The translations under genes and the position numbers were made by a program. From Amyelois transitella (Eukaryota; Arthropoda; Insecta; Lepidoptera; Pyralidae): a stretch of DNA of 64,000 bases. The DNA is taken from the NCBI RefSeq assembly GCF_032362555.1, contig NC_083509.1:496001-560000 (forward strand). Reading direction: 5' to 3'. The notes beneath the pieces were generated by a model. The model was not told the DNA's origin and made no database searches. It was given only the letters and a program-made list of their open reading frames with translations. Below are positions 2,859-54,400 of this stretch, one piece after another. Each line of letters starts with the position of its first letter. Within the stretch, counting starts at the first letter, position 1.

Positions 2859-5800
2859 ACACACATACATACATACATAAAATCACGCCTCTTTCCCGGA
2901 GGGGTAGGCAGAGACTACCTCTTTCCACTTGCCACGATCTCTGCATACTTCTTTCGCTTCGTCCACATTCATAACTCTCTTCATACAAGCTCGGCGGTTT
3001 CGGGTACTTTTGACCTGACCCTTTACCAGGACGTCCTTAATTTGATCAAGATACGTTCGTCTAGGTCTTCCCACTCCGACCTTTCCCTCCACACTCTCCT
3101 TGTATATCTGCTTAGTCAACCTGCTTTCATTCATCCTCTCCACATGACCGAACCATCTTAACATACCCTTTTCTATTCCTGTAACTACATCTTCTTTCAA
3201 ATCACAACATTCCCTTATCACGCTGTTCCTTATCCTGTCACTCAATTTCACACCCATCATACTCCTTAACGCTCTCATTTCCACTGCATTTATTCTGCTT
3301 TCATGCTTCTTTTGCCATACCCAACTTTCACTCCCATACATTAATGTCGGGACCAACACGCCCCTGTGCACAGCCAGTCGAGCCTTTTTGGATAGTTTCT
3401 GACTGCTCATAAAGGCATGCAAAGCTCCATTCACCATGTTCCCCGCGTTCACTCTCCTTTCAATATCACTATCATACTTGCCATCTGATGTAAACTTTGA
3501 TCCTAGATATACAAACTCTTTCACTTGCTCCACTTTTTCTCCTCCAATCAAAATATTACATGCTGTCATTTCTTTCTCCATTTCAAAAACCAGTGTTTTA
3601 GTTTTACTTACGTTCACTTTCATTCCTTTCTCTTTTAAAGCTTCATGCATACAGTTTACCATCTCCTGTAACTCCTCCGCTGATGACGCCAGTATAACCT
3701 GATCGTCGGCATAGAGCAGACATTTGACGAGTAACTCATTCATCCTTAATCCACTTTTAGACTCTTTCAAATCTGTCAAACAGCTATCCATAAATAGGTT
3801 GAACAGCCACGGTGACGCAACACATCCTTGCCTAACGCCTTTCTCAATCTTAAACCACTCAGTGTGCGCTCCGTTTATCCTGACACAAGCACTCGAATCC
3901 TCATATAAGGATTTCAGTGCTCGTATTAAGAGACTGCTCACCCCATGCATAGAAAGTGCTGACCACAATTCATTCCTCTCAACTCTGTCATAGGCCTTTT
4001 CCAGATCTACGAATGTGCAATAGACTTTTTGACTCTTGGCCAAAAACTTTTCGGCTATGCACCGCAAGGAAAAGACCTGATCAGTACATCCCATTCCCTT
4101 TCGAAATCCCGCTTGAGCATCCCATATTTTGTCATCAGTTTCATTCCTGACTCTATTAATCAATACCTTAGCATACAATTTGCCGACGACGCTAAGCAGG
4201 CTTATACCACGATAATTTTTGCAGTCCAGCTGTGACCCTTTTCCTTTGTAAAGTGGCACGATAACAGCCTTACACCAATCTTTTGGTACTCGGCCGCTTC
4301 TCCAACACAAATTGAAAAGGCAGTACAACTGACTAGCTACTACGCCTTTTCCTGCTTTAAGCATCTCGACCGACACTCTATCACACCCAGCAGCCTTTCC
4401 CGCTTTCATACTCTTAAGTGCTTCCACAATTTCGAACATTTCAATTTCGCCTTCCATCTCATTCTCTTTTTCTTCGCTATAGCAGAAATCTTTCTTATTT
4501 CCTTCCTTTTTTTCAAATAAACTTTCAAAATAGTCCTTCCATATCTTTAGTACACATTCTTCTCCTTTCACAACGCTACCATCCTGGCATCTGATCCTAG
4601 TCAGCTCTCTGGTTATAGTATTTCCTCGGGCTGACCTTACGGATTTCCAGAATACTTTCAGATTTGACTGAAAGTCTTCTGATAGCCTTTTATCAAAATC
4701 CTCTTTATACTCTTCTTTCTTTCTAATCACAGCTTTCTTAACCAAATCTTTCATTTTCTTATATTCCTTACGTGCTTCATTCACATCTTCATCTATAACC
4801 TCTTGCATTCTTAAGTTAGCTTTTGCTGCTAACAAATCCAGCCATGCTTTCTTCTTTAATCGCACAAGTTCTTGCACATCTTTACTCATCCACGCATTTT
4901 TGTGATTTTTTCCTTTCCTTCTTCTACTTACACCACACACTTCAACAGCTACTTTCACAATTCTTTCTTTAAATTCCTTCCATCCATCTTCAATATCGCT
5001 CATTTCATCTAAATCTTCAAATTCATCCTTCAGTCTATTAATATACTTCTTACCTACATCCATATCTTGCAAATTTTCTACTTTTACTCTTTCCAAAGCG
5101 CTGGTTTGCTCCCTTACCCTGTGCCGCCAGCGATTGAAGATACCCCTTATCCGGGATATCACCAGTAAATGGTCCGAGTCAATGCCAGCACCGCGATATG
5201 CACGGGTATCCAGCACTTTGTTCTTCAATCTTTCATCTACAATCACAAAGTCTATCATACTTTTTAAAATACCTTCCACTCTTGTGTAGGTGTGGATCTC
5301 TTTATGTTGAAACATTGAGTTCGACACAAAAAGATCCCACTCTAGACAAATTTCTAATACACTTCTTCCATTATCATTCACCTTTTCGTCACCAAACGCA
5401 CCAAGCACCTTTTCATATCCATCACGCTTTACACCCACCCATCCATTAAAATCACCTAACATAATAATCTTCTCATTTGGCTTGGTAACTTTCAATACTT
5501 CTCTTACACTATTCCAGAACTCCTCGTTTTCGCTTTTTGCTGATGTTGTACCCCTCGAACCCACATCCCAAGGTGCATAAACACCTAGAACGAAGATCCG
5601 AGTGATTCCAACTTTCAGCCTAATCCATAGAAGACGAGGGCTGACACACTCATACTCATTCACGCACTCAGCCATTCGTGCAGAAAGAATTAGACCGACC
5701 CCTTGACAGCCTCGGCTGGTACTGGAAATTCCAGACCAATACGCCGTGTAAGGGCCGTGCTGCGTCGCGTCGCATCCTTTCCGCTTCGTTTCATTCACGC

Positions 5801-5947
5801 ACAACACATCCAAACGTCTTTCATCCATCATCTGGCATACTTCCTCAATCTTATCCTTCATTCCTCCTCTTACATTCATCGTCGCAAAGCGGCTTTCAGC
5901 AGACCGCATACCGCTCCCGCCGGGAACGAGACGTGATGGGGTGCGGA
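2859..5947 (-). mobile_element. RTE-type non-LTR retrotransposon, near full length
   Basis: The whole insertion is flanked by the 11-bp target duplication TAAAATAAGAT (2848-2858 and 5948-5958) and sits in an older SINE-like copy. On the minus strand it has a very short leader, one long ORF, and almost no 3' UTR: the stop codon lies in GGCGTGATTTTATG and is followed by a TATG microsatellite tail. Such tails and minimal UTRs are typical of the RTE clade. The reading frame stays open upstream of the first ATG to the insertion edge, so slight 5' truncation is possible. Confidence 0.85.
2883..5909 (-). CDS. RTE-type endonuclease/reverse transcriptase polyprotein
   Basis: Intact 1008-residue ORF. 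An apurinic-type endonuclease occupies roughly residues 5-255, with NVRGG near 12, the ETK motif at 40-42, VYAPW near 110, LGDFNGW at 151-157 and a SDHLLV motif near 246. A basic linker follows. The reverse transcriptase includes YRGISLLSVVGKLYAKVL, GFRKGMGCTDQ, the VRQGCVASPWLFN block and the catalytic YADD at about 733-736. The C-terminal end has the RWFGHVERM and GRPRRTY motifs usual for arthropod RTE-like proteins. The product nicks target DNA and copies its RNA there. No stop or frameshift breaks the ORF, so this copy could be a live source of the truncated copies elsewhere. RTE is assigned by layout and motifs; a related clade is possible. Confidence 0.88.
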   Translation of the reverse strand: MRSAESRFATMNVRGGMKDKIEEVCQMMDERRLDVLCVNETKRKGCDATQHGPYTAYWSGISSTSRGCQGVGLILSARMAECVNEYECVSPRLLWIRLKVGITRIFVLGVYAPWDVGSRGTTSAKSENEEFWNSVREVLKVTKPNEKIIMLGDFNGWVGVKRDGYEKVLGAFGDEKVNDNGRSVLEICLEWDLFVSNSMFQHKEIHTYTRVEGILKSMIDFVIVDERLKNKVLDTRAYRGAGIDSDHLLVISRIRGIFNRWRHRVREQTSALERVKVENLQDMDVGKKYINRLKDEFEDLDEMSDIEDGWKEFKERIVKVAVEVCGVSRRRKGKNHKNAWMSKDVQELVRLKKKAWLDLLAAKANLRMQEVIDEDVNEARKEYKKMKDLVKKAVIRKKEEYKEDFDKRLSEDFQSNLKVFWKSVRSARGNTITRELTRIRCQDGSVVKGEECVLKIWKDYFESLFEKKEGNKKDFCYSEEKENEMEGEIEMFEIVEALKSMKAGKAAGCDRVSVEMLKAGKGVVASQLYCLFNLCWRSGRVPKDWCKAVIVPLYKGKGSQLDCKNYRGISLLSVVGKLYAKVLINRVRNETDDKIWDAQAGFRKGMGCTDQVFSLRCIAEKFLAKSQKVYCTFVDLEKAYDRVERNELWSALSMHGVSSLLIRALKSLYEDSSACVRINGAHTEWFKIEKGVRQGCVASPWLFNLFMDSCLTDLKESKSGLRMNELLVKCLLYADDQVILASSAEELQEMVNCMHEALKEKGMKVNVSKTKTLVFEMEKEMTACNILIGGEKVEQVKEFVYLGSKFTSDGKYDSDIERRVNAGNMVNGALHAFMSSQKLSKKARLAVHRGVLVPTLMYGSESWVWQKKHESRINAVEMRALRSMMGVKLSDRIRNSVIRECCDLKEDVVTGIEKGMLRWFGHVERMNESRLTKQIYKESVEGKVGVGRPRRTYLDQIKDVLVKGQVKSTRNRRACMKRVMNVDEAKEVCRDRGKWKEVVSAYPSGKEA

Positions 5948-6061
5948 TAAAATAAGATTCCCAAGTTTATAAGCCTATCCCTTAGTCGCCTTTTACGACA
6001 TCAATGGAAAATGAGAAAAAGTGGTCCTATTCTTTTTTCTATTGTGCGGGAATCAAACGGC
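5948..6061 (-). repeat. SINE-like (S1) remnant, right side of the RTE insertion
   Basis: Continues the copy interrupted at 2858: TCCCAAGTTTATAAGCC, CTTAGTCGCCTTTTACGACA, then a decayed head (GGGAATCAAACGGCA). Together the two halves show that the SINE-like element was there first. Confidence 0.75.
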
Positions 6062-21416: not shown

Positions 21417-24400
21417 ATGACAGAAAATAAGCAATACAGATGTGTAAATTGTGGCAAACCGCACAGTGCTTTATACAAAACATACGGACCTACACTTTTG
21501 AAACTTACCAAATGTGTAAGTGTTTTGGACAAACATTATCATTTCCTGGAAAATTATATGAACATTTATGTTATCTACAATAGTTTTTTCGAACAGTCCA
21601 TATACCAATAGTCTCTTCGTTTTATATTTACGTTTTGTGGTAATTCTTAAAAACACGTAATTCTCTTAAGCTCAAACAAACTTATTAAACTTATCCACTC
21701 CTGCTAATCCTAGTTACTATTCGTAGTATAAACTGACAAATCATACATGTAATAACTATGTAAATGTACTAAGCCCCTCGTGTAATCGTTTTATTTCTTC
21801 ACATACCCAGCATAAACCTGTACTTTCAGTTTCACTAATACATTATGAATTTAACTTTTTCAGGATAAATGCAAAGGAATAGTAGATAAATACATAGAAT
21901 ATGATCCAGTTATTGTTATGATAGATATAGTTTTAATAACCAAAGAAGCACAGTGGCATGTACTGTATAATACAGAATTTAAGGTAAGAAAGTAGAATTA
22001 TTTTTGCTCAAAATTCCTAGAAATAAATCTTCATGTAGCTGATGAGCTAGCAACCTGTCACTATTTGAATTTCAATTCTATCAATAAACCTAACAGCTGA
22101 ACATAGCCTTTCAAGACTGCTGGCTCTGTCTACCCTGCAATGGATATAGACGTGATTATATGAATGAATGAATATGTTAATAATAAGCTTGTCAAAAACA
22201 AAAAATTGTAAACAATACATTTGAATATGCTTCTTGAAATGCAGAAACACTCTCTATGTTAACAAAGTACACTAAATCACCATACAATTAACACTTGAAA
22301 TGATTGCCAAGTTTTTCTTTGGGTGAATGTATCAGGCCTATCCTGGCTAAAGGTCAGGTCAAGAGTAGCTTGCATAAAAAGTGATAAGAATGTGGATAAT
22401 GCGAAAGAGTATGCAGGGATCACAAAATATTGAAAAGATGTAGTCTTTGTCTCCCTCCAGGAAAGAGGCTTGATTTTATGTACGTATAGCCTATAGCAAA
22501 ACTAAATGGGATACTAATTATCTAAATATGTGTTTTTCAGTCATATTGGAAGCTGTTTATAATCCTCGTCATGGTGGAAACGTACGGGTTGTGGAGACGA
22601 GACAGCCTGTTCAATATTGCTGTAGACTCATTGTGCGGCATGCGGAATGGATCCTATAACAACACGTTTTTGTATGTCGATTTACTTGTTACTCTAACGA
22701 TGGATGTTGACATAGCAAATGATATAAATATATGTATAAAATAATATAAAACATTGAAACAAGAAAGCTAAAAAAGATCTGTGATATACTGGTACCGTGT
22801 GGTTCCTAGCAGTAGTAGAATAAAGAATAGGTCCACTCCATCTCATCCCATGGATGACGTAAAAGACGACTAAGAGATTAACTTGGGATTCTTCTTTTAA
22901 GCGATGGGCTAGCAACCTCAGTCACTATTTAAATCTCAATTCTATCATTTTTCCAAACAGCCAAATGTGGCCATTCAGTCTTTTCAAGACTGTTGGCTCT
23001 GTCTACTCCGCAAGGGAATAGACGTGACCATATGACTGAACCGATATAGACTTTCCCAGAGGGGTAGGCAACTATATTAGATAGTTGTATTAATTTGTTT
23101 CATTTATGTTTGGATATGTTTAAATATTTTATTTCCCAATTTTCAGCCACACGGCAGTGCCGGAAATCTTGAAAGACCAGTGTTGGGCGTGGGAGCAACA
23201 AGACAGGAGCAATGACAATGATCTCTTCATAATGGAGAAGGATTTTTATGTCCAGTTCATTTCTACTTTTAGTGGTATGTTTGTTACATACATACATAGA
23301 TATAATCACGTCTATATCACTTGCGGGGTGTCCTCCTACTGCGCCAAAAAGCTTGACAGAGACTGGACATTTTTCCATACATATATTTTAAATGAAGAGA
23401 TTTTTGCCTGTTTATTATTCTGTCCCGCAACTTGAAAAAAGCTACTTCTTCAGTAAAGTACTGTTGCTGACACAGGCAAATGAACGGCGAAATATCTATA
23501 CTAATATCGTAAAGCTGAAGAGTTTGTTTGTTTGAACGCGCTAATCTCAGGAACTACTGGTTCAAATTGAAAATTTCTTTTTGTGTTTAATAGACCATTT
23601 ATCGAGAAAGGCTTTAGGCTATTTATCATCATGCTGCAACTTTTAGGAGCGAAGAAATAATGGAAAATGTGAAAAAAAAACAGGGAAAATTATTCCTCCT
23701 TGAGGGCTTCAATGATGCCCAAAATAACTATTCCACGCGGACGAAGTCGCGGGCACAGCTAGTATTAAATAAATTAAATGAATATAGTGTTAATGTGTTT
23801 GTATACCATAAGTCTTGAACTTACTAGGGGCTAGCTTTTATTTGTGTACTTTTTCCGTTCTCTTTATTAAAAAGCCATGTTGGAGAGTAATAATTATGTA
23901 GATGAAAACGAAAGAATTATGCAGGGATAGTGGTAAGTGGAAAGATGTAGTGTCTGCCTACCCCCCAGGAAAAGTCGTGCGATTTATGTATGTATGTATA
24001 ACTAAGAAGAAGAACATTAACCGATTGTTTTTATACTAATTTTCAGGAATAGTCATGTTTATGATGATTCTTCATGGTCTGATGAAATTGACGAAACCTT
24101 TGTCATCGCGTTACGAAGGTTTGTATCTGTTAATGCCTACATAGCATTAAAATCTAAACTAATATTATAAAGCTGAAGAGTTTGTTTGTTTGTTTGAATG
24201 CGCTAATCTCAGGAAATCAGGGAATTGGTTCGACTTGAAAAAGTCTTTTTGTGTTGAATAGACCATTTATGGAGGAAGGCTTTAGGCTATATACCATCAC
24301 GCTGTAACTATTAGGAGCGAAGAAATAATGGAAAATTGAAAAAAAAACGGGCAAAATTATTCATCCTTGAGGGCTTCAATGATGCCCGAAATAACTATTC

Positions 24401-30320: not shown

Positions 30321-30795
30321 TCACGGGCTCAGGGGCGGGTCATCTTGCCCAATCATCACATCTTCATACATGACATGGTTGTTTCTTCTCTGGTTGATCT
30401 TTTGCCGCACATAGTCTACTAAGTTGTACTTTCTTATGACTAATACAAGGCCTCCTGCTATCAGTGCTAACGTGAACAGTGTCACGAGAGCTGCCGCCGT
30501 GGCATGGCTCGGCGGAGAGGCACTTTCAGGTTTGCAATCCTCGTCTGTCATGGTAAACCCCTTTACACACTCACAGCGCCCTGTAACCTGATTGCACTGC
30601 TGATTGTCCCCAGGGCATGGATCTATAGAGGTCACATTGCAGGACAGGATGTGCTCTGTTAAAAAGAATAAAGTTCTCGCATAACACCGCCACAATAAAT
30701 TGATTCAATTAAATAATTGTCGGCTACTTACCAGTGTAAGCGAAATGTACGAGGTTTAGGATTAGCGCAGCTACATCAAATGTTCTTAGTCTCAT
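30321..30795 (-). CDS. Small EGF-like single-pass membrane protein
   Basis: Two exons, 30732-30795 and 30321-30655, with GT-AG borders and phase 1, make 132 residues. Residues 1-21 (MRLRTFDVAALILN start) form a signal peptide. Six cysteines at C7C6C6C1C10 spacing (about 27-63) make one EGF-like module ending in GRCECVKGF. A short Ser/Pro stalk leads to a 22-residue transmembrane helix (VTLFTLALIAGGLVLVI). The cytoplasmic tail of about 37 residues is basic, then acidic (YEDVMIGQDDPP). The layout suits a type I surface protein; ligand and role are unknown. I do not recognise a named family. The first exon has no in-frame upstream evidence for a longer form. Confidence 0.75.
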
Positions 30796-31034
30796 GTCTG
30801 CAAATCCTAGGCTTAAATATTATCACATCACAAAATATTATCGTATTGGGGAACAAAATCTTTTTGTTTTTATGCGGACAATGAATCTTCACTTCCACGA
30901 GTCGCAATCGCAAGGAAGAAAACAATTTGACTTGTCAGTGGTGGTGATCTGTCAAATGTCATGTCATGTCAAGCTACGTTGCGTTTCGTTATAATCAAAT
31001 GTTAGAGCGTATTGCGTTTAGTTTTACTTTACTT

Positions 31035-31770
31035 CTTCTTCTTATGCGTTACACTCTTGTCAGAGTGGTCGTGGTCGTACAGAAGGGTTAGTGGCTCGCT
31101 TTACAATCCTTCGCCACTCGTCGCGCATCGCTGCCTTTCTGGAGCATTCACAGAGAGGGTCACCTAGTGCTGATTTTATTTGATCTGTCCACCTCATGGG
31201 GGACCTGCCTCGAGGTCGAGTACCCTCAACTCGCCCCTGCACCACCAGTCGTTCAATGGATGCCTCGTTACGACGCGACACGTGCCCGAAGAAAGTGAGA
31301 ATTCGAGCCTGCACTAAGGAAGATAAGGGACGCTTGATTCTGAGTTCCTGGAGAATGGACTGGTTGGTGCGAAAGTCTGTCCATACTACTATAAGCATTC
31401 TTCTCCAGCACCACATCTCCAGGGCATCTATGCGTTTTCTCTCAGTGTCTCGTAGGGTCCACGTTTCCGCTGCGTAAAGGAAAATTGGGAAGATCAATGC
31501 ACGTACAAGCCGTACTTTGGTCGCTTTTGTGATTTTCCGGCTCTTCCAGATCTTCCTCATCCTATCCATGGCAGATCTTGACATGGCCATGCGTCTCTTT
31601 ATCTCCTCGTCGCATCCTCCATTGTTGGTGATCAACGCTCCCAGATATATGTATGAATGAACAACCTCACAACCCGCAATACTAGTGACTTCTGGCTGGT
31701 TGTTATTGACACGGTCCACAATCATCACCTTAGTCTTCGACCGGTTGATCTTTAGCCCAAACTCCTAAAC
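31035..31770 (-). mobile_element. 5'-truncated non-LTR retrotransposon with 8-bp target duplication
   Basis: Flanked by CTTTACTT at 31027-31034 and 31771-31778. On minus it holds the C-terminal part of a reverse transcriptase and ends in an AAG-rich tail (TAAGAAGAAGAAG). It is a different family from the RTE at 2859. Confidence 0.8.
31060..31768 (-). pseudogene. C-terminal fragment of a LINE reverse transcriptase
   Basis: Open frame of about 235 codons starting inside LKINRSKTKVMIVDRV, the segment after the catalytic site. YLGALITNNGG, LYAAETWTL, FGHVSRRNE and GRSPMRWTDQIK are typical thumb/C-terminal motifs of RTE-like and related LINEs. Endonuclease and the catalytic YADD are missing through 5' truncation. 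The frame has no internal stop, suggesting a fairly recent insertion. Confidence 0.78.
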
Positions 31771-31934
31771 CTTTACTTACTTAAATTTTAATTTAAGTTT
31801 TGTTATTGCCTAAACCCTTATTTCGGCAATGTGTCGTAAATCAGGTATAAATTGTAAGTAAAATAGTAATATTTCCGATACAACTTTTGTTTTATGTGTG
31901 GTAAAACAAATTTACATCGCAATCTTTTCTGTCT

Positions 31935-45340: not shown

Positions 45341-48300
45341 ATGATGTATCGAACGATATTAAACTTCTTCAAATACCTCTATGACAACATGACAGTAGTT
45401 GTCTTAAAACTTTTAGAAAAAATCAAAACACATAAAAAAATCGAAAAAACATGCTCTAACAATAAAACTAAAAAAAATATATTAAAACAAGCAAAAGAAA
45501 TTAAAAGTGAATCAGTTCAGGATGTGACCAGAGCAGGAGGAACAATGATTAAGGCGTTATCAAGTAGTATTTTGTCTAGAAATCTGCTGAGCCAATTTGG
45601 GGTGAACACGCGACAGCCGGTGCGTTGCAGGAGGCCCTCTCCCTGCGACGTCTGCGCATTCCCACCAGAGAAGAGGCCAGTAAGTAAACTAGCAGACACA
45701 TAAGTGGGTACTTACATACATATAACTCGTCTGTAATATTTACGGGTTAAACGACTTACGAAAGACTGAAAGCCACATTCAGCTGGATGACTTAATGATG
45801 GCAAACTGGGAAACAGTTTGTATAGCTGCTGACCTATCGCCTTCTAGTTTCAGATTTTTAATTATTTAATGAAAAGGTCTTTGAGCTTTATAAGCACCTT
45901 TTTTTTGCAAATACTTGCGTAATAAATTTTTGTATAAGGATTAAATTGTTTGTGCATTATGGTGTCTGATACTTTAGAATAGGACCCATTTTTTTCTGTG
46001 TGTGGCAATTTCACCCACTGCAACAACTATGGTCCAGGCGTGTTGAATTGGTGTTAATATACTCTCTGAGGTCAGTCAGAAGCGGTTCGTTTACCTGACT
46101 TTACTTCTGGGAAACCGTGATTATAGGATTTTCTCTGAAAATAAAATAGCCGAGACAAATGCTAGAAGAATAAATGAATAACAAGTGATTTGATATTAGG
46201 AAAAGGTAACGCTAAATACAGGAGAACCTCTCTTTCTCTTTAGCTCTTATTCATTCCTGACTCAGGGTCGGCACTATGTGGTCTTATCACATTGTTTCTC
46301 TTCCCAGTGTTTCGACATTCGCAATGTGACAATCGAGCGGGGGAATCGATGCCACGCCAAGTTTATCAGGTCCTTCCTCTACAACCACTTCTGGCCCAGG
46401 GAGCCCAGCGTCGTGGGACTGTGGATGGACCTCAACTGTCCGTACATAGATGTCCTCACCGACAAGTATTCCCATTCAGGTATTGGAATGTTTACACTTC
46501 CTATCAGTTTCAATTCCAATTTCTATGGATGTCTTTATCTAATTAAGATAGTATATTCCTAAGGTTTTACATCCTTCGGATCTTTCAAAATTCTACGGAT
46601 TTACGATATATTTAGACGGATTAGAATTCACTATGAATAAAAAGGTCACTGTGCTACCTTTCTTTCCTATATCTTATATCTATATCTTAGCTATTGGTTC
46701 AAAACTCATGTAACATGCTTTATCTAATGACACTGCTCCTACTTACTTCAACTGAAATGAGATAAATTATTCTTTTACCATATTTACTTTCTTAATTGAT
46801 ATATATTTTAAAGCTTATTAAAAAATATTCATTTAAATAACTCTTTATTCCAGGTGATAGGTTCATAGCCTACGAGAAAATCCCAAGAACCGGTGAGAGG
46901 AAGATGATAGGAGTTCTAATAGCCAACAAACTATTTCCATGGGCTGCTGACGAGCTGGAGGAGTGGGCTCATTACACCGCATCGAGGCCAGAGCGCCACC
47001 GCATGTACTTCTGTGCCCATTGCATCAGGAGTCCGAATCTTTTCACCAAGTACAACATAAACTTCATTTATGATGTGAGTCAAATATAATTAGCTGTAGG
47101 CGTTAGAATTTAAGGTATTTTTTGTGTGTGTGTGTGTGTGCCGTGTGGTTCCCGGCACCAGTAAAAAAAAGAATAGGACCACTCCATCTCGTTCCCATGG
47201 ATGTCGTAAAAGGCGACTAAGGGATATGCTTATAAACTTGGGATTCTTCTTTTAGGCGATGGGCTAGCGACCCGTCACTATTTGAATCTCAATTCTATCA
47301 TTAAGCCAAACAGCTGAACGTGGCCTATCAGTCTTTTCAAGACTGTTGGCTCTGTCTACCCCGAAAGGGATAAAGACGTGATCATATGTATGTATGTATG
47401 TTTTTTTTTTTGCCACTGGTATTACGAAGTGCAAATCTAGTAGCAAAATCAAATTATGTCTTAATTTCATAATATCCTGTCGCTCTAAAGGGTTGGAAAG
47501 ACATATAGACTATTTTTAAAAAGTAGAAAAAGAGATGTTGTGAAAGATAATTTTAGCGGGATAAATGTTCCAGAGGAAGTTGTTTATGATTGTGATAACA
47601 CTTGAATCTTATGTATCCGCTCAATATAATATAAAAGTAATTCTGATGATTTAAATATTAAATCAGTGAACAGGTTTAAATAATTAATTTACAGCAGTGA
47701 TGTCCTAGTTGACGTGCCGTGTGGTTCCCGGTACCAATAAAGAAAGAATAGGACCACTCCGTCTCATTCCCTTGGATGTCGTAAAAGGCCATTAAGGGAT
47801 AGGCTTATAAACTTGATTCTTCTTATAGGCGATGGGCTAGCAACCTATCACTATATGAACCTCAATTTTATCATTAAGCCAAACAGCTGGTCGTGGCCTT
47901 TCAGTCTAGACTGTTGGCTCTGTCTACCCCGCAAGGGATATAGACGTGATTATATGTATGTATGTATGTGCTGTCTTTATTCCCGTGGAAACCTCGAGTT
48001 AGTTTTAGCTAACCCAAGTTCTGATCATGTCAGGTGGAAGTTCTAGTCACGGCATCCGAAGTGACTGCCCAGGGGGTGGGCACCCTGTTATTGAAGACTG
48101 CCATAGACAATGCGTATGAGCTCAGATACCCATTGGTGCAAGTTGTTGCAGTCAGCCAGTATACGTGCGTATAAATCAGATTTTACACAGTTTCACAATC
48201 GGGATGAAGCGAAGGAAGTGTGCAGAGATCGTGGCAAGTGGAAAGAGGTAGTCTCTGCCTACCCCTCCGGGAAAGAGGCGTGATTTTATGTAGGTACGTA

Positions 48301-49085
48301 TGTATGTTACAATCGGGGATTTGCAAAAAAAAAAAAAAAACACTGTATTCATTTGTAAGTGGCGCTAAATTCGTCGCTTTTTGTAAGTGGCGTTTGATTC
48401 GATGCTTTTTGTACGTAGTGCTAATTTCGTCGTTTGTTTTTATAGATGGTGTTAAATATAAATTCATAGCTTTTTGTACATTTCTAAATTCACGCGGGCG
48501 AATCTGCGGTTAAAAGCTAGTTTCTTGTATAACTGTGTGGCGACTTCCTACGCCACACGTCACAACAATAAAAAATAAAATCACGCGACGCTATCAGTCA
48601 AAAACAGTGAAAAAACACACAAGCAAGGATTTCACGGAGTGGAGCAAATATACAACCTCCGACACAACATCGTTGGAGCCGCGGTTCCCCAGGCACACAC
48701 CTAGCCTTCTTCCCTTTGGTGGCGGTCGAGTCGAATATACGCTCCCGCTACAACGGTACAAATCATAAGTTCTCAAATTATGTTTTAAAGCCGTATATTT
48801 CACAGTGTTATTAACAGAACTTTAGTTCCTTAAAAAGCTTTAGGAATTAAAAGTAAAAAGCAAGGTAAAGACAATAAAGTAAATAAATTGTTTTATTTCA
48901 GTGCAAGAATCTGCGAGAAATGCGGCATGAAACGGGAATGGGAGATGAGCTACACCGACTTTGTGGACGACTTTGGCCAGCGGGTGTTCTTCCCCCGCAG
49001 CCCTCATCACACTGTCGCCATCTATGTCAAGTACTTCGATCCCAAAATTGGAGCAATTGTGCCGTGCAAGCCGCAACTTATGTGA
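45341..49085 (+). CDS. GNAT-superfamily N-acetyltransferase
   Basis: Five exons: 45341-45679, 46308-46479, 46854-47074, 48034-48164, 48902-49085; 348 residues with phases 0, 1, 0, 2. The start follows an in-frame TAG. Residues 1-113 are a Lys-rich leader with a possible organelle-type presequence (IKALSSSILSRNLLSQFG). The fold begins near 117 (DIRNVTIERGN). Exon 4 has the acetyl-CoA loop TAQGVGTLLLK between two beta strands, and exon 5 has the usual C-terminal YTARICEKCGMKREW helix and strand. GNAT enzymes move an acetyl group from acetyl-CoA to an amine; the substrate cannot be told. Insect arylalkylamine or glycine-type acyltransferases are candidates. Two S1 copies occupy intron 3. Confidence 0.8.
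45735..45852 (-). repeat. SINE-like (S1) remnant in acetyltransferase intron 1
   Basis: AAGACTGAAAGCCACATTC, AGCTGGATGACTTAATGATG and ACCTATCGCCT only. Confidence 0.5.
47139..47400 (+). repeat. SINE-like element (S1), complete, in intron 3
   Basis: Preceded by a GT dinucleotide run; TGCCGTGTGGTTCCCGGCAC to ATCATATGTATGTATGTATG. Confidence 0.87.
47715..47970 (+). repeat. SINE-like element (S1), complete, in intron 3
   Basis: Second copy in the same intron. Its 3' hairpin is the perfect palindrome CAGTCTAGACTG. Confidence 0.87.
48205..48307 (+). repeat. RTE 3' fragment in acetyltransferase intron 4
   Basis: GATGAAGCGAAGGAAGTGTG, CTCTGCCTACCCCTCCGGGA and a TATG tail; very close to the intact RTE. 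Confidence 0.8.
48350..48480 (+). repeat. Short tandem repeat of about 30 bp units
   Basis: TTTTTGTAAGTGGCG-type units recur three to four times (GTAAGTGGCGCTAAATTCGT, GTAAGTGGCGTTTGATTC, GTACGTAGTGCTAATTTCG). Confidence 0.6.
48536..48752 (+). repeat. Solo LTR of the TRIM-like family in intron 4
   Basis: TGTGGCGACTTCC to CGCTACA, with ACAACCTCCGACACAACATC and GGAGCCGCGGTTCCCCAGGC. Flanks ACTG and ACGG may be a mutated target duplication. Confidence 0.75.
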
Positions 49086-51469: not shown

Positions 51470-54400
51470 TCAGTTCTTCTTCTCATACCCCCAACGAGAG
51501 CCGCCCTCGTTGCCCCCCTTCTTGCCGTGCTGTGAGTGGTGGGCTTTGTGTTCCTCGTGACCCTGACCTCCTTTGTAGCCGGTGTGGTCTTCGTCCAGGT
51601 GACCCTTGTTGCTGAAAAGAGAATAAAAACACTATTACTACCATTTTATTGAGTCACGCGTAAGAAGTATATCGTGGCAAGTGGAAAGATGTTGTCTGGA
51701 AGGAGGCGGGATTTTATGAATGTATGTTACGTAGCCTATTTGGACTGTTCTACTCTGGCTCTAGCTACCCTGTAAGGGATGAAGATGTGATTATATGTAT
51801 GTATTTTTAGTCGTTCGCCACGCACTTAGACCAGGAACTTAAAACTACTAAGCGATTTGATGCCGCGCGGATTTAAAAATTAGGTACATTGACATATCCT
51901 AAATTTATTTTCAATTTTATCAAAATGTAAACAGTTCGAAAGTTTTCGCATGACAAACGTACATACAAAAAAAATATTAATTGATATCTTTTCCTTACTC
52001 GCTTTCTTGCTTAAAGTAATTCTATTCCTAAATGGTTAACCTTCTTCATGCATCTCCTTCTATCTTTATAGATAGAAAGAGATATGAAACTACATCTATA
52101 TTAAATTTTGAATTACATAAGTCACATCAAGATCAAATCGGATTGGTTCTAGCAAAAGGTCAGGTCAAGAGTACTCGAATCCGACGAGCTTGCATGAAGA
52201 GAGTTATAAATGTGGATTAAGCGAAAGAAGTATGCAGGGATCGTGGCAAGTGGAAAGATGTGGTCTCTGCCTACCCCTTCAGGAAAGAGGCGTGATTTAT
52301 GTATGTATGTATATATAAGTCACATGAAATGAATTTGTTCAACTCTGCTAACGTCTGTGTTTATTTATATCTTAACTAAGAATATACAAATGACGACACT
52401 AAACAGTTTTGAGGGCCAAGATCTAAAATTGTAACATTGTGTGTATGTATAATACAACATGAAGTCAAAACTAATATTCATCAACGGGCTAATGCCTTTC
52501 ACATCATCATGCAGAATGTGAATTTTATGACATTTGGTTTATACATCAATGAAGTGCCGTGTGGTGAACACAGGTCTACTACTCGATTCTGGTATATGTT
52601 GCAATTACAAATACATTGATTACCTGTATCCCTTCTTACCTCTCTCCGCGAAAGCATCACCCACGTTCACACGGTTAGCCTTCTCCTTTCCACTCTCGTT
52701 TCTCGCGTCTTTTGCTTTGAACTACCCGTATATGTGGTATTTCCTACCAAATTCTCGAAAATTCTAAAGTCATTGTAAAAATTACCTGTATCCCTTCTTG
52801 CCTCTCTCCACGAAAGCATCACCCACGTTCACATGCTGAGCCTTCTTCTTTCCACTCTCGTTACTCGCGTCTTTTGCTTTGAACTACCCATATCTGTGGT
52901 ATTTCCTACCAAATTCTCGAAATTTCGAAAGTCTTTGTAGAAATTACCTGTATCCCTTCTTGCCTCTCTCCACGAAGTCATGGCCGCGTTCTCATGGTGA
53001 GCCTCCTTCTTTTCGTTGTCGTTGCTCGGGTCTTTCGCTTTGAACTACACGCATCTGTTTTATTTCCTACCAAATTCTCGAAATTTCGAAAGTCTTTGTA
53101 GAAATTACCTGTATCCCTTCTTTCCTCTCTCCACGAAGTCATGGCCGCGTTCACATAGTGAGCCTCCTTCTTTTCGCTGTCGTCTTTTGCTTTGAACTAC
53201 CCTCATTTGTTTTATTTCCAACCAAATTCTCGAAATTTCGAAAGTCTTTGTAGAAATTACCTGTATCCCTTCTTGCCTCTCTCCGCGAAAGCATCACCCA
53301 CGTTCACATACTGAGCCTTCTTCTTCCCGCTCTCGTTGTTGGCGTCTTTTGCTTTGAACTACCCGTATCTGTGATATTTTCGACCAAATTCTCGAAATTT
53401 CAAAAGTCTTTGTGGAAATTACCTGTATCCCTTCTTTCCTCTCTCCACGGAGTCATGACCCGCGTTCACATGGATAGCTTCCTTCTTTTCGTTGTCGTTG
53501 CTCGGGTCTTTTGCTTTGAACTACCCATATCTGTGGTATTTCCTACTAAATTCTCGAAATTACGAAAGTCTGTAGAAATTACCTGTATCCCTTCTTGCCT
53601 CTCTCCACGAAGTCATGGCCCGCGTTCACATGATGAGCCTTCTTTTTCCCGCTCTCGTTGCTGGCGTGTTTCGCGTTGAACTTGCCGTATCTGTGGTGTT
53701 CCCCGCTCTTGTGGAAGTCATCGTAGAACTTATGCTCTTTGTGGAACTCGTCCTTGTGGTATTTGTTGTGGTACCCTGGAAATTTGGGGAATTTGGGTTT
53801 ATTCCATTATTATTTGTAATGATTTCTTTGGGATTGGCTTTAAAATGTAGGGAATGGGGCTTTGTTAGTGTATCCTCTAAGAGAACATGAAAATTCTTAT
53901 GAAAATTGCAGAAGTAAGTTTTCGATGTGGTAAACATCGCAGTGTAAACTTTGGATTCTTCTTTTAGGCGATGGGCAAGCAACCTGTCACTATTTGAATC
54001 TCATTACCATCTTTTAGCTATAAAGCTGAACGCGGCCTTTCAGTCTTTACAAGACTTGGTTATCTATGTATGTATGTATGATAATTAAGCGAAAGAATGT
54101 GGCTTACTACTTTACTTGAATACCCGAAAGAAATTATTTTTCTAATGTAGGAGTAGATAGCTTTTCTGATAAAAGTACATAACTGTTTTGAAACCATAAA
54201 AGTTTTATTCGCACTTATTATTTTAATACCTAAGTAATTAACGAATTCAGTTCACGTAGATGCAGTCGCGGGCGATTGTTAAAAGTAAATTCGACAATAT
54301 TCCCACGATAAGTTCAAAGAATTTTAAAATGTTTGTTTTTATTACCCTACCCGTTACGTGTTTTGGACATGTGGCATACAGATATACAAACAAGATTATT

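Follow-up and report, generated by a model that had tools for sequence, protein, structure and literature searches.

The stretch of Amyelois transitella DNA analysed here (64,000 nucleotides, hereafter the window) contains many copies of a short repeat, S1, and several copies of a LINE of the RTE type, and the question raised by the S1 copy at 47715..47970 (+ strand; a full-length copy of about 250 bp, followed by TATG repeats, with the shared tail at 47918-47956) is whether its 3' end is that of the LINE and, if so, whether S1 owes its spread to the enzyme of the LINE. We consider it very probable that S1 is a retroelement, short and non-autonomous, which a LINE of the RTE type copies and which carries the same 3' end as the RNA of that LINE. 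Some 10 codons at the end of the RTE make up most of this common RNA end, the remainder being a few bases of the UTR.

The S1 consensus, built from 33 full-length copies, was aligned with the open RTE copy of the window. Among the 39 aligned 3' columns 31 are identical, with 7 substitutions and 1 gap. The alignment score of 36 was reached by none of 5000 shuffles, and with the last 8 bases omitted the score is 25, reached by 2 of 5000; the best of the other 593 60-nt segments of the RTE scored 18 against 36 for the tail, and the best of 68 other segments of S1, compared with the RTE tail, scored 11. For S1 outside the tail the best match to the RTE had an E of 0.86, which is not convincing, and the similarity of the two elements is confined to the tail. 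The shared stretch starts with CTCTG and ends at the first ATG ahead of the TATG repeats, with which both elements terminate. The first-pass annotation had asserted both the common 3' end and the TATG repeats behind either tail, and both assertions hold. Its figure of 37 of 48 positions, obtained by eye, caught the likeness but was slightly generous as to the extent, as local similarity begins at CTCTG and not farther upstream. The consensus tails, which it proposed to compare with shuffled controls, are clearly more alike than these, and no other LINE carrying the S1 tail turned up in a direct search that covered RTE-type upstream sequence.

As to abundance, the window contains 21 occurrences of an 18-base piece from the S1 tail at up to 3 mismatches (mean 0.01 in shuffles) and 4 of its RTE equivalent; a single S1 copy used as the query recovers three of the four RTE tails of the window unaided (E 1.6e-5, 2.1e-4 and 0.0025). 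In the genome (327 Mb in 33 contigs were searched) a strict 34-base S1-tail pattern matches 22,965 times, whereas the reversed control does not match at all. The RTE coding-tail pattern matches 5,606 times on the + strand; on the - strand the count is 10,687, but this is an overestimate, since a site may fit the pattern at two gap lengths. Viral contigs contained no match to the tail pattern, and the 5 that matched the S1-head pattern turned out on reading to be unrelated. The searches of other organisms produced one bacterial contig match, and among them the search with the RTE protein gave no confirmed relative.

In the LINE the shared stretch is coding, as had been claimed from the sequence at the outset. 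The open reading frame of the window RTE (2883..5909, - strand; 1008 aa from the first ATG, including endonuclease and reverse transcriptase) ends in ...SAYPSGKEA*, with the shared tail at 2913-2876. The stretch reads ...VVSAYPSGKEA*, the frame being open up to KEA*, and after the stop come TTTTATG and, almost directly, TATG repeats; the 3' UTR is very short, with simple repeats right behind the stop. The S1 version of the stretch, with one extra base and 7 substitutions, does not keep the frame. A domain search of the single ORF detected RVT_1 (3.6e-41) and Exo_endo_phos_2 (2.9e-06), and it is from this anatomy, together with the label given in the first-pass annotation, that the clade name RTE is taken. 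The same tail is found in an RTE 3' fragment at about 48193..48307 (+; shared tail 48253-48290, stop codon TGA at 48281-48283, then TATG-like repeats) and in an older one at 52105..52317 (+; 2 mismatches in the 18-base piece), while a further older fragment at 23863..24003 (+) has a decayed tail. A second, distant RTE-like coding remnant (~30% identity) lies at about 30700-31800 (-) and is followed by AAGAAGAAG, a tail of a different type.

The window RTE bears the 11-bp duplication ATCTTATTTTA at both ends, read by eye, and is nested within an S1 copy: the 5' part of the invaded S1 lies at 5948..6061 (-), and the whole arrangement, with ATCTTATTTTA on either side of the RTE, occupies 2860-6061 (-; by eye). 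In the genome, target-site duplications of 8-12 bp were seen at 6 of the 8 RTE loci with a visible 5' break among 30 examined, a count made without a control. Of 32,790 first-look candidates, 72 RTE copies were scored and listed; all of these agree with the 605-residue query at 100% and lack internal stops, so that activity of the family in the very recent past is probable. The large number of near-identical copies (loci L009-L038, including the 72 listed) is probably due to a burst that took place very recently and after the S1 copies examined had arisen.

S1 matches make up 8.9% of the window. The element has a defined 5' end, GTGCCGTGTGG, and its 76 copies comprise 33 of full length, 31 truncated at the 5' end, 11 truncated at the 3' end and 1 truncated at both; a second full-length copy (47139..47401, +; 96.0% identity to the consensus) lies just upstream of the one at 47715. 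The insertion duplications for which a check had been proposed do exist: 10 of 27 full-length copies are flanked by target-site duplications of 10-14 bp, against 1.3% at 9 bp or more in a mispaired control, although 7 of the 27, including 5 of the 10 positives, had been fetched as best matches and hence are probably young. The copy at 47715..47970 itself has no clear duplication. In its duplications and its excess of 5' truncations S1 behaves as a retroelement. The identity of 38 copies to the consensus has a median of 92.2% and a maximum of 97.2%, and these copies are older than the near-identical current copies of the RTE; it does not follow, therefore, that the RTE of today is moving S1. 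Searches of the S1 head for an Rfam match and for a signature of tRNA, 5S or Pol III gave none, and the A/B-box score is no better than that of shuffles (1707 of 2000). Since neither an Rfam match nor A/B boxes above the shuffled level were obtained, "SINE-like" is the right word for S1. The first 22 bases of the consensus, GTGCCG...CGGCAC, are self-complementary and could form a small hairpin.

Further evidence came from mosaics of the two elements. A first search for RTE sequence with an S1 tail gave 14 places, 12 of which were read, and in two of these (L049 and L051) RTE coding sequence runs into an S1-type tail. Genome-wide, a pattern joining RTE upstream sequence to the S1 tail had 47 matches at 3 mismatches, and the reverse pattern had 30. 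Loci were fetched if the matched letters looked promising, and 20 of the 47, 14 of the 30 and 2 of the 14 were judged on matched letters alone; such patterns can detect only junctions within the shared stretch. The fetched loci (22 and 15 for the two orders) were scored column by column against the S1 and RTE references. By this scoring 13 of the 22 consist of an RTE body with an S1 tail (L049, L051, L057-L060, L062-L064, L068-L071), and 11 of the 15, several of them old, of an S1 body with an RTE tail (L076-L086). L067, a partial RTE-to-S1 mosaic, is counted outside the 13 but inside the 25 loci in which duplications were looked for. Eight loci of the RTE-to-S1 set (L056, L061, L065, L066, L072-L075) and four of the S1-to-RTE set (L087-L090) had matched the patterns but were not chimeras on scoring. 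Both classes of mosaics are rare in these searches.

The share of informative columns fitting one junction ranges from 28/37 (L063) to 43/44 (L060) in the RTE-to-S1 mosaics and from 22/29 (L078) to 41/41 (L083) in the S1-to-RTE ones. The tail side of the calls rests on at most 9 informative columns, and the last of these is RTE-like in L068 and L071, both within the 13, and S1-like in L081, against the tail assignment. The junctions lie inside the shared stretch, in at least two intervals per direction and mostly at columns -1 to 13. That the intervals differ hints at separate events; the two main intervals are distinguished by one T/C column, so that descent from fewer chimeric sources could also account for them. 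At least one exchange is needed in each direction. The T at reference column -3 in L049, L051 and L058 was found also in combination with RTE upstream and tail letters and is probably an RTE polymorphism, for which reason columns -1 and 5 are preferable as the bounds of the junction in these three loci. Two of the S1-to-RTE loci have peculiarities of their own. L085 (C26:863530-864415) consists of two tandem S1 units, both with a similar RTE-type tail variant, GCCGGG, apparently the outcome of one duplication or copying of the mosaic; in L083, past position 440 in the orientation of the element, the S1 body and RTE tail are followed directly by an inverted RTE 3' end.

Two mosaics, one of each order, are flanked as wholes by target-site duplications: L049 (RTE-to-S1) by the 13-bp ATGTAAGTATTAT and L076 (S1-to-RTE) by the 11-bp TGCTAGCCCAT, the target of the latter being an inverted S1 which continues afterwards (by eye). 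In the mispaired control scores of 11 or more occurred at 0.2%. Being flanked in this way, L049 and L076 each look like a single insertion. For 23 of the 25 mosaics no clear duplication was found. A stricter finder, with a narrow 5' edge, had given nothing longer than 7 bp in the 25, and the edge was then widened, with a matching mispaired control. At score 9 the widened finder detected duplications in 3 of 25 ordinary S1 copies from the window against 2 of the 25 mosaics; at score 8 the figures were 7 of 25 and 2 of 25, which is less favourable. As ordinary S1 copies also seldom score, the absence of duplications in mosaics is weakly informative.

Could the mosaics have arisen at the DNA level, by gene conversion or by unequal exchange between copies of S1 and the RTE, and not by template switching? 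The 23 of 25 loci devoid of a detectable duplication agree with such an origin, and conversion of a tail in place would even preserve a duplication; nevertheless we regard it as unlikely, considering that the shared stretch offers only 39 columns of about 80% identity, that crossing-over is disfavoured for L049 and L076 by their clear duplications, and that past the junction the tail mostly belongs to the other element up to its end (last informative column in 10 of 13 and 10 of 11 loci), as a single switch predicts. According to another explanation, the RTE bodies joined to S1 tails would go back to a single RTE source, or to a few, already furnished with an S1-type tail, in a minor sublineage that is possibly the real partner of S1, and the reciprocal set would have arisen in the same manner. 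Six of the 13 (L049, L051, L058, L059, L063, L064) do share GTC before the TACCCC block and an S1-type loop, the block itself being AACCCC in one of them, TACCCG in another and TACCCT in a third; the other seven keep the RTE-type C, the one T/C column could change by later point mutation, and GTC is found in RTE tails too. Even so, a common descent of this kind seems rather improbable to us: the copies in question are few, while a single strand has more than 5,600 RTE tails, no long copy with an S1-type tail was seen among the loci examined, and the 11 reciprocal mosaics would still call for at least one exchange in each direction.

The nature of S1 itself admits other readings as well. Internal-deletion derivatives of LINEs exist in Lepidoptera (Persaeus from Zenon, in the part of PMC6740152 available to us), and the lack of a detected Pol III head would suit S1 being a plain derivative of this kind, from the RTE or another LINE, and not a composite with its own head. 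We think this quite unlikely: nothing in the body of S1 resembles the RTE convincingly, and at the other 29 RTE loci the sequence next to the 5' side of the element is not the S1 head, a comparison that covers this RTE. An apparent 85% match between the 5' ends of S1 and the RTE was discarded, the reference having included the S1 copy that hosts the nested window RTE. Finally, a resemblance of the tails due to chance or to convergence on a common microsatellite end is hardly credible: TATG repeats do end both elements, but the similarity persists without the last 8 bases and is not approached by any other segment of the RTE.

We thus return to copying of S1 by an RTE-type LINE. The reverse transcriptase of the RTE would start on the tail of S1 or RTE RNA by target-primed reverse transcription and would occasionally switch to the other RNA within the shared stretch. 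The mosaics suggest that one reverse transcriptase handles both RNAs, and its switching between them is the simplest cause of the mosaics, whose occurrence in both orders is as expected from it. The mobilisation proposed in the first-pass annotation stands as far as the shared tail, the coding stretch of the LINE and the retroelement hallmarks of S1 are concerned, with the mosaics now added; S1, in which no Pol III head was found, is better called SINE-like than a strict SINE, and its tethering to the coding tail is conjectural. A hairpin in the tail might conceivably be the shape recognised by the enzyme. Folds of short tail pieces were matched by shuffles in 20/200 (S1) and 25/200 (RTE) cases, those of longer pieces in 69/200 and 124/200, and the RTE piece pairs differently from the S1 piece; the hairpin is hardly better than shuffles. 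A compensatory pair (T-A in S1, C-G in the RTE) was set aside as a suggestion only, being a single pair in two families whose folds barely beat shuffles. S1-type tails with both hairpin changes number only 6 genome-wide by a strict pattern.

Sharing of tails between RTE elements and SINEs has already been published for other Lepidoptera, where a partnership such as that of S1 and the RTE is ordinary; the notable part here is the two-way mosaics. The comparisons that follow refer to the portions of the cited papers available to us. In Plutella and Spodoptera, the 43-bp 3' end of PxLINE1 is 84% identical to the SINE PxSE5, and PxSE5 and SfSE1 have a common 56-bp 3' end (89.6%); PxLINE1 has a short 3' UTR with ATGT repeats, the label RTE not being applied to it in those portions (Han et al., 2021, PMC8010984). 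By their descriptions, these elements resemble S1 and the RTE in the shared tail and the short repeat 3' UTR; they differ in that the heads of PxSE5 and SfSE1 are derived from 5S and tRNA, respectively, whereas the S1 head has no such match, and in that those portions report no SINE/LINE mosaics. In Helicoverpa, the 43-bp tail of HaSE1 is 82% identical to HaRTE1.1; HaSE1 and HaSE3, too, have an RTE-type LINE as partner, whose short 3' UTR terminates in a simple repeat, but the repeats are TGA and not TATG, and the heads are of tRNA and 5S origin (Wang et al., 2012, PMC3272025). Metulj of heliconiine butterflies is, like S1, very abundant and has an RTE-like tail; it differs in its tail ends, its RTE partner is only suspected, and the available text reports no mosaics (PMC6685494). 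Lepidopteran RTE elements possess a single ORF with endonuclease and RT, are flanked by TSDs, and have microsatellite units as their 3' UTR (Tay et al., 2010, PMC2887409); as in the window RTE, simple repeats follow the stop at once, although the repeat units are others. As this 3' UTR is very short and consists of repeats only, we infer that any conserved RTE tail beyond the repeats must be coding.

Template-switch chimeras are known that combine U6 and RTE-like LINEs of Anolis (PMC4476161) or Alu and L1 (PMC13174262). Like the S1/RTE mosaics, these are bipartite insertions, some with TSDs, and they are ascribed in the available text to switching by reverse transcriptase or to RNA ligation; in them the small RNA stands at the 5' side of the LINE, whereas S1 and the RTE are joined in both orders and inside a common stretch. 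Among the matches listed in a search of open-access titles and abstract starts, no SINE/RTE mosaics in both orders were found.

Taken together, the observation made at this locus is sound and its interpretation largely right for a known kind of partnership, while the two-way mosaics may interest specialists. The partnership of a SINE with a LINE is usually argued from similarity of tails alone; mosaics joined in either order come nearer to being physical evidence of one enzyme copying both RNAs, and simple pattern searches suffice to find them. Since the shared tail lies in codons, the constraints imposed on the same bases by the protein and by the RNA might be disentangled experimentally. As a tentative extension, which we regard as doubtful though worth stating, the shared coding tail may be a live exchange tract, in which the reverse transcriptase of the RTE crosses from S1 RNA to RTE RNA or the reverse; the short parasite could then swap its tail for the current one of the LINE and so follow a recognition signal that is protein-coding.
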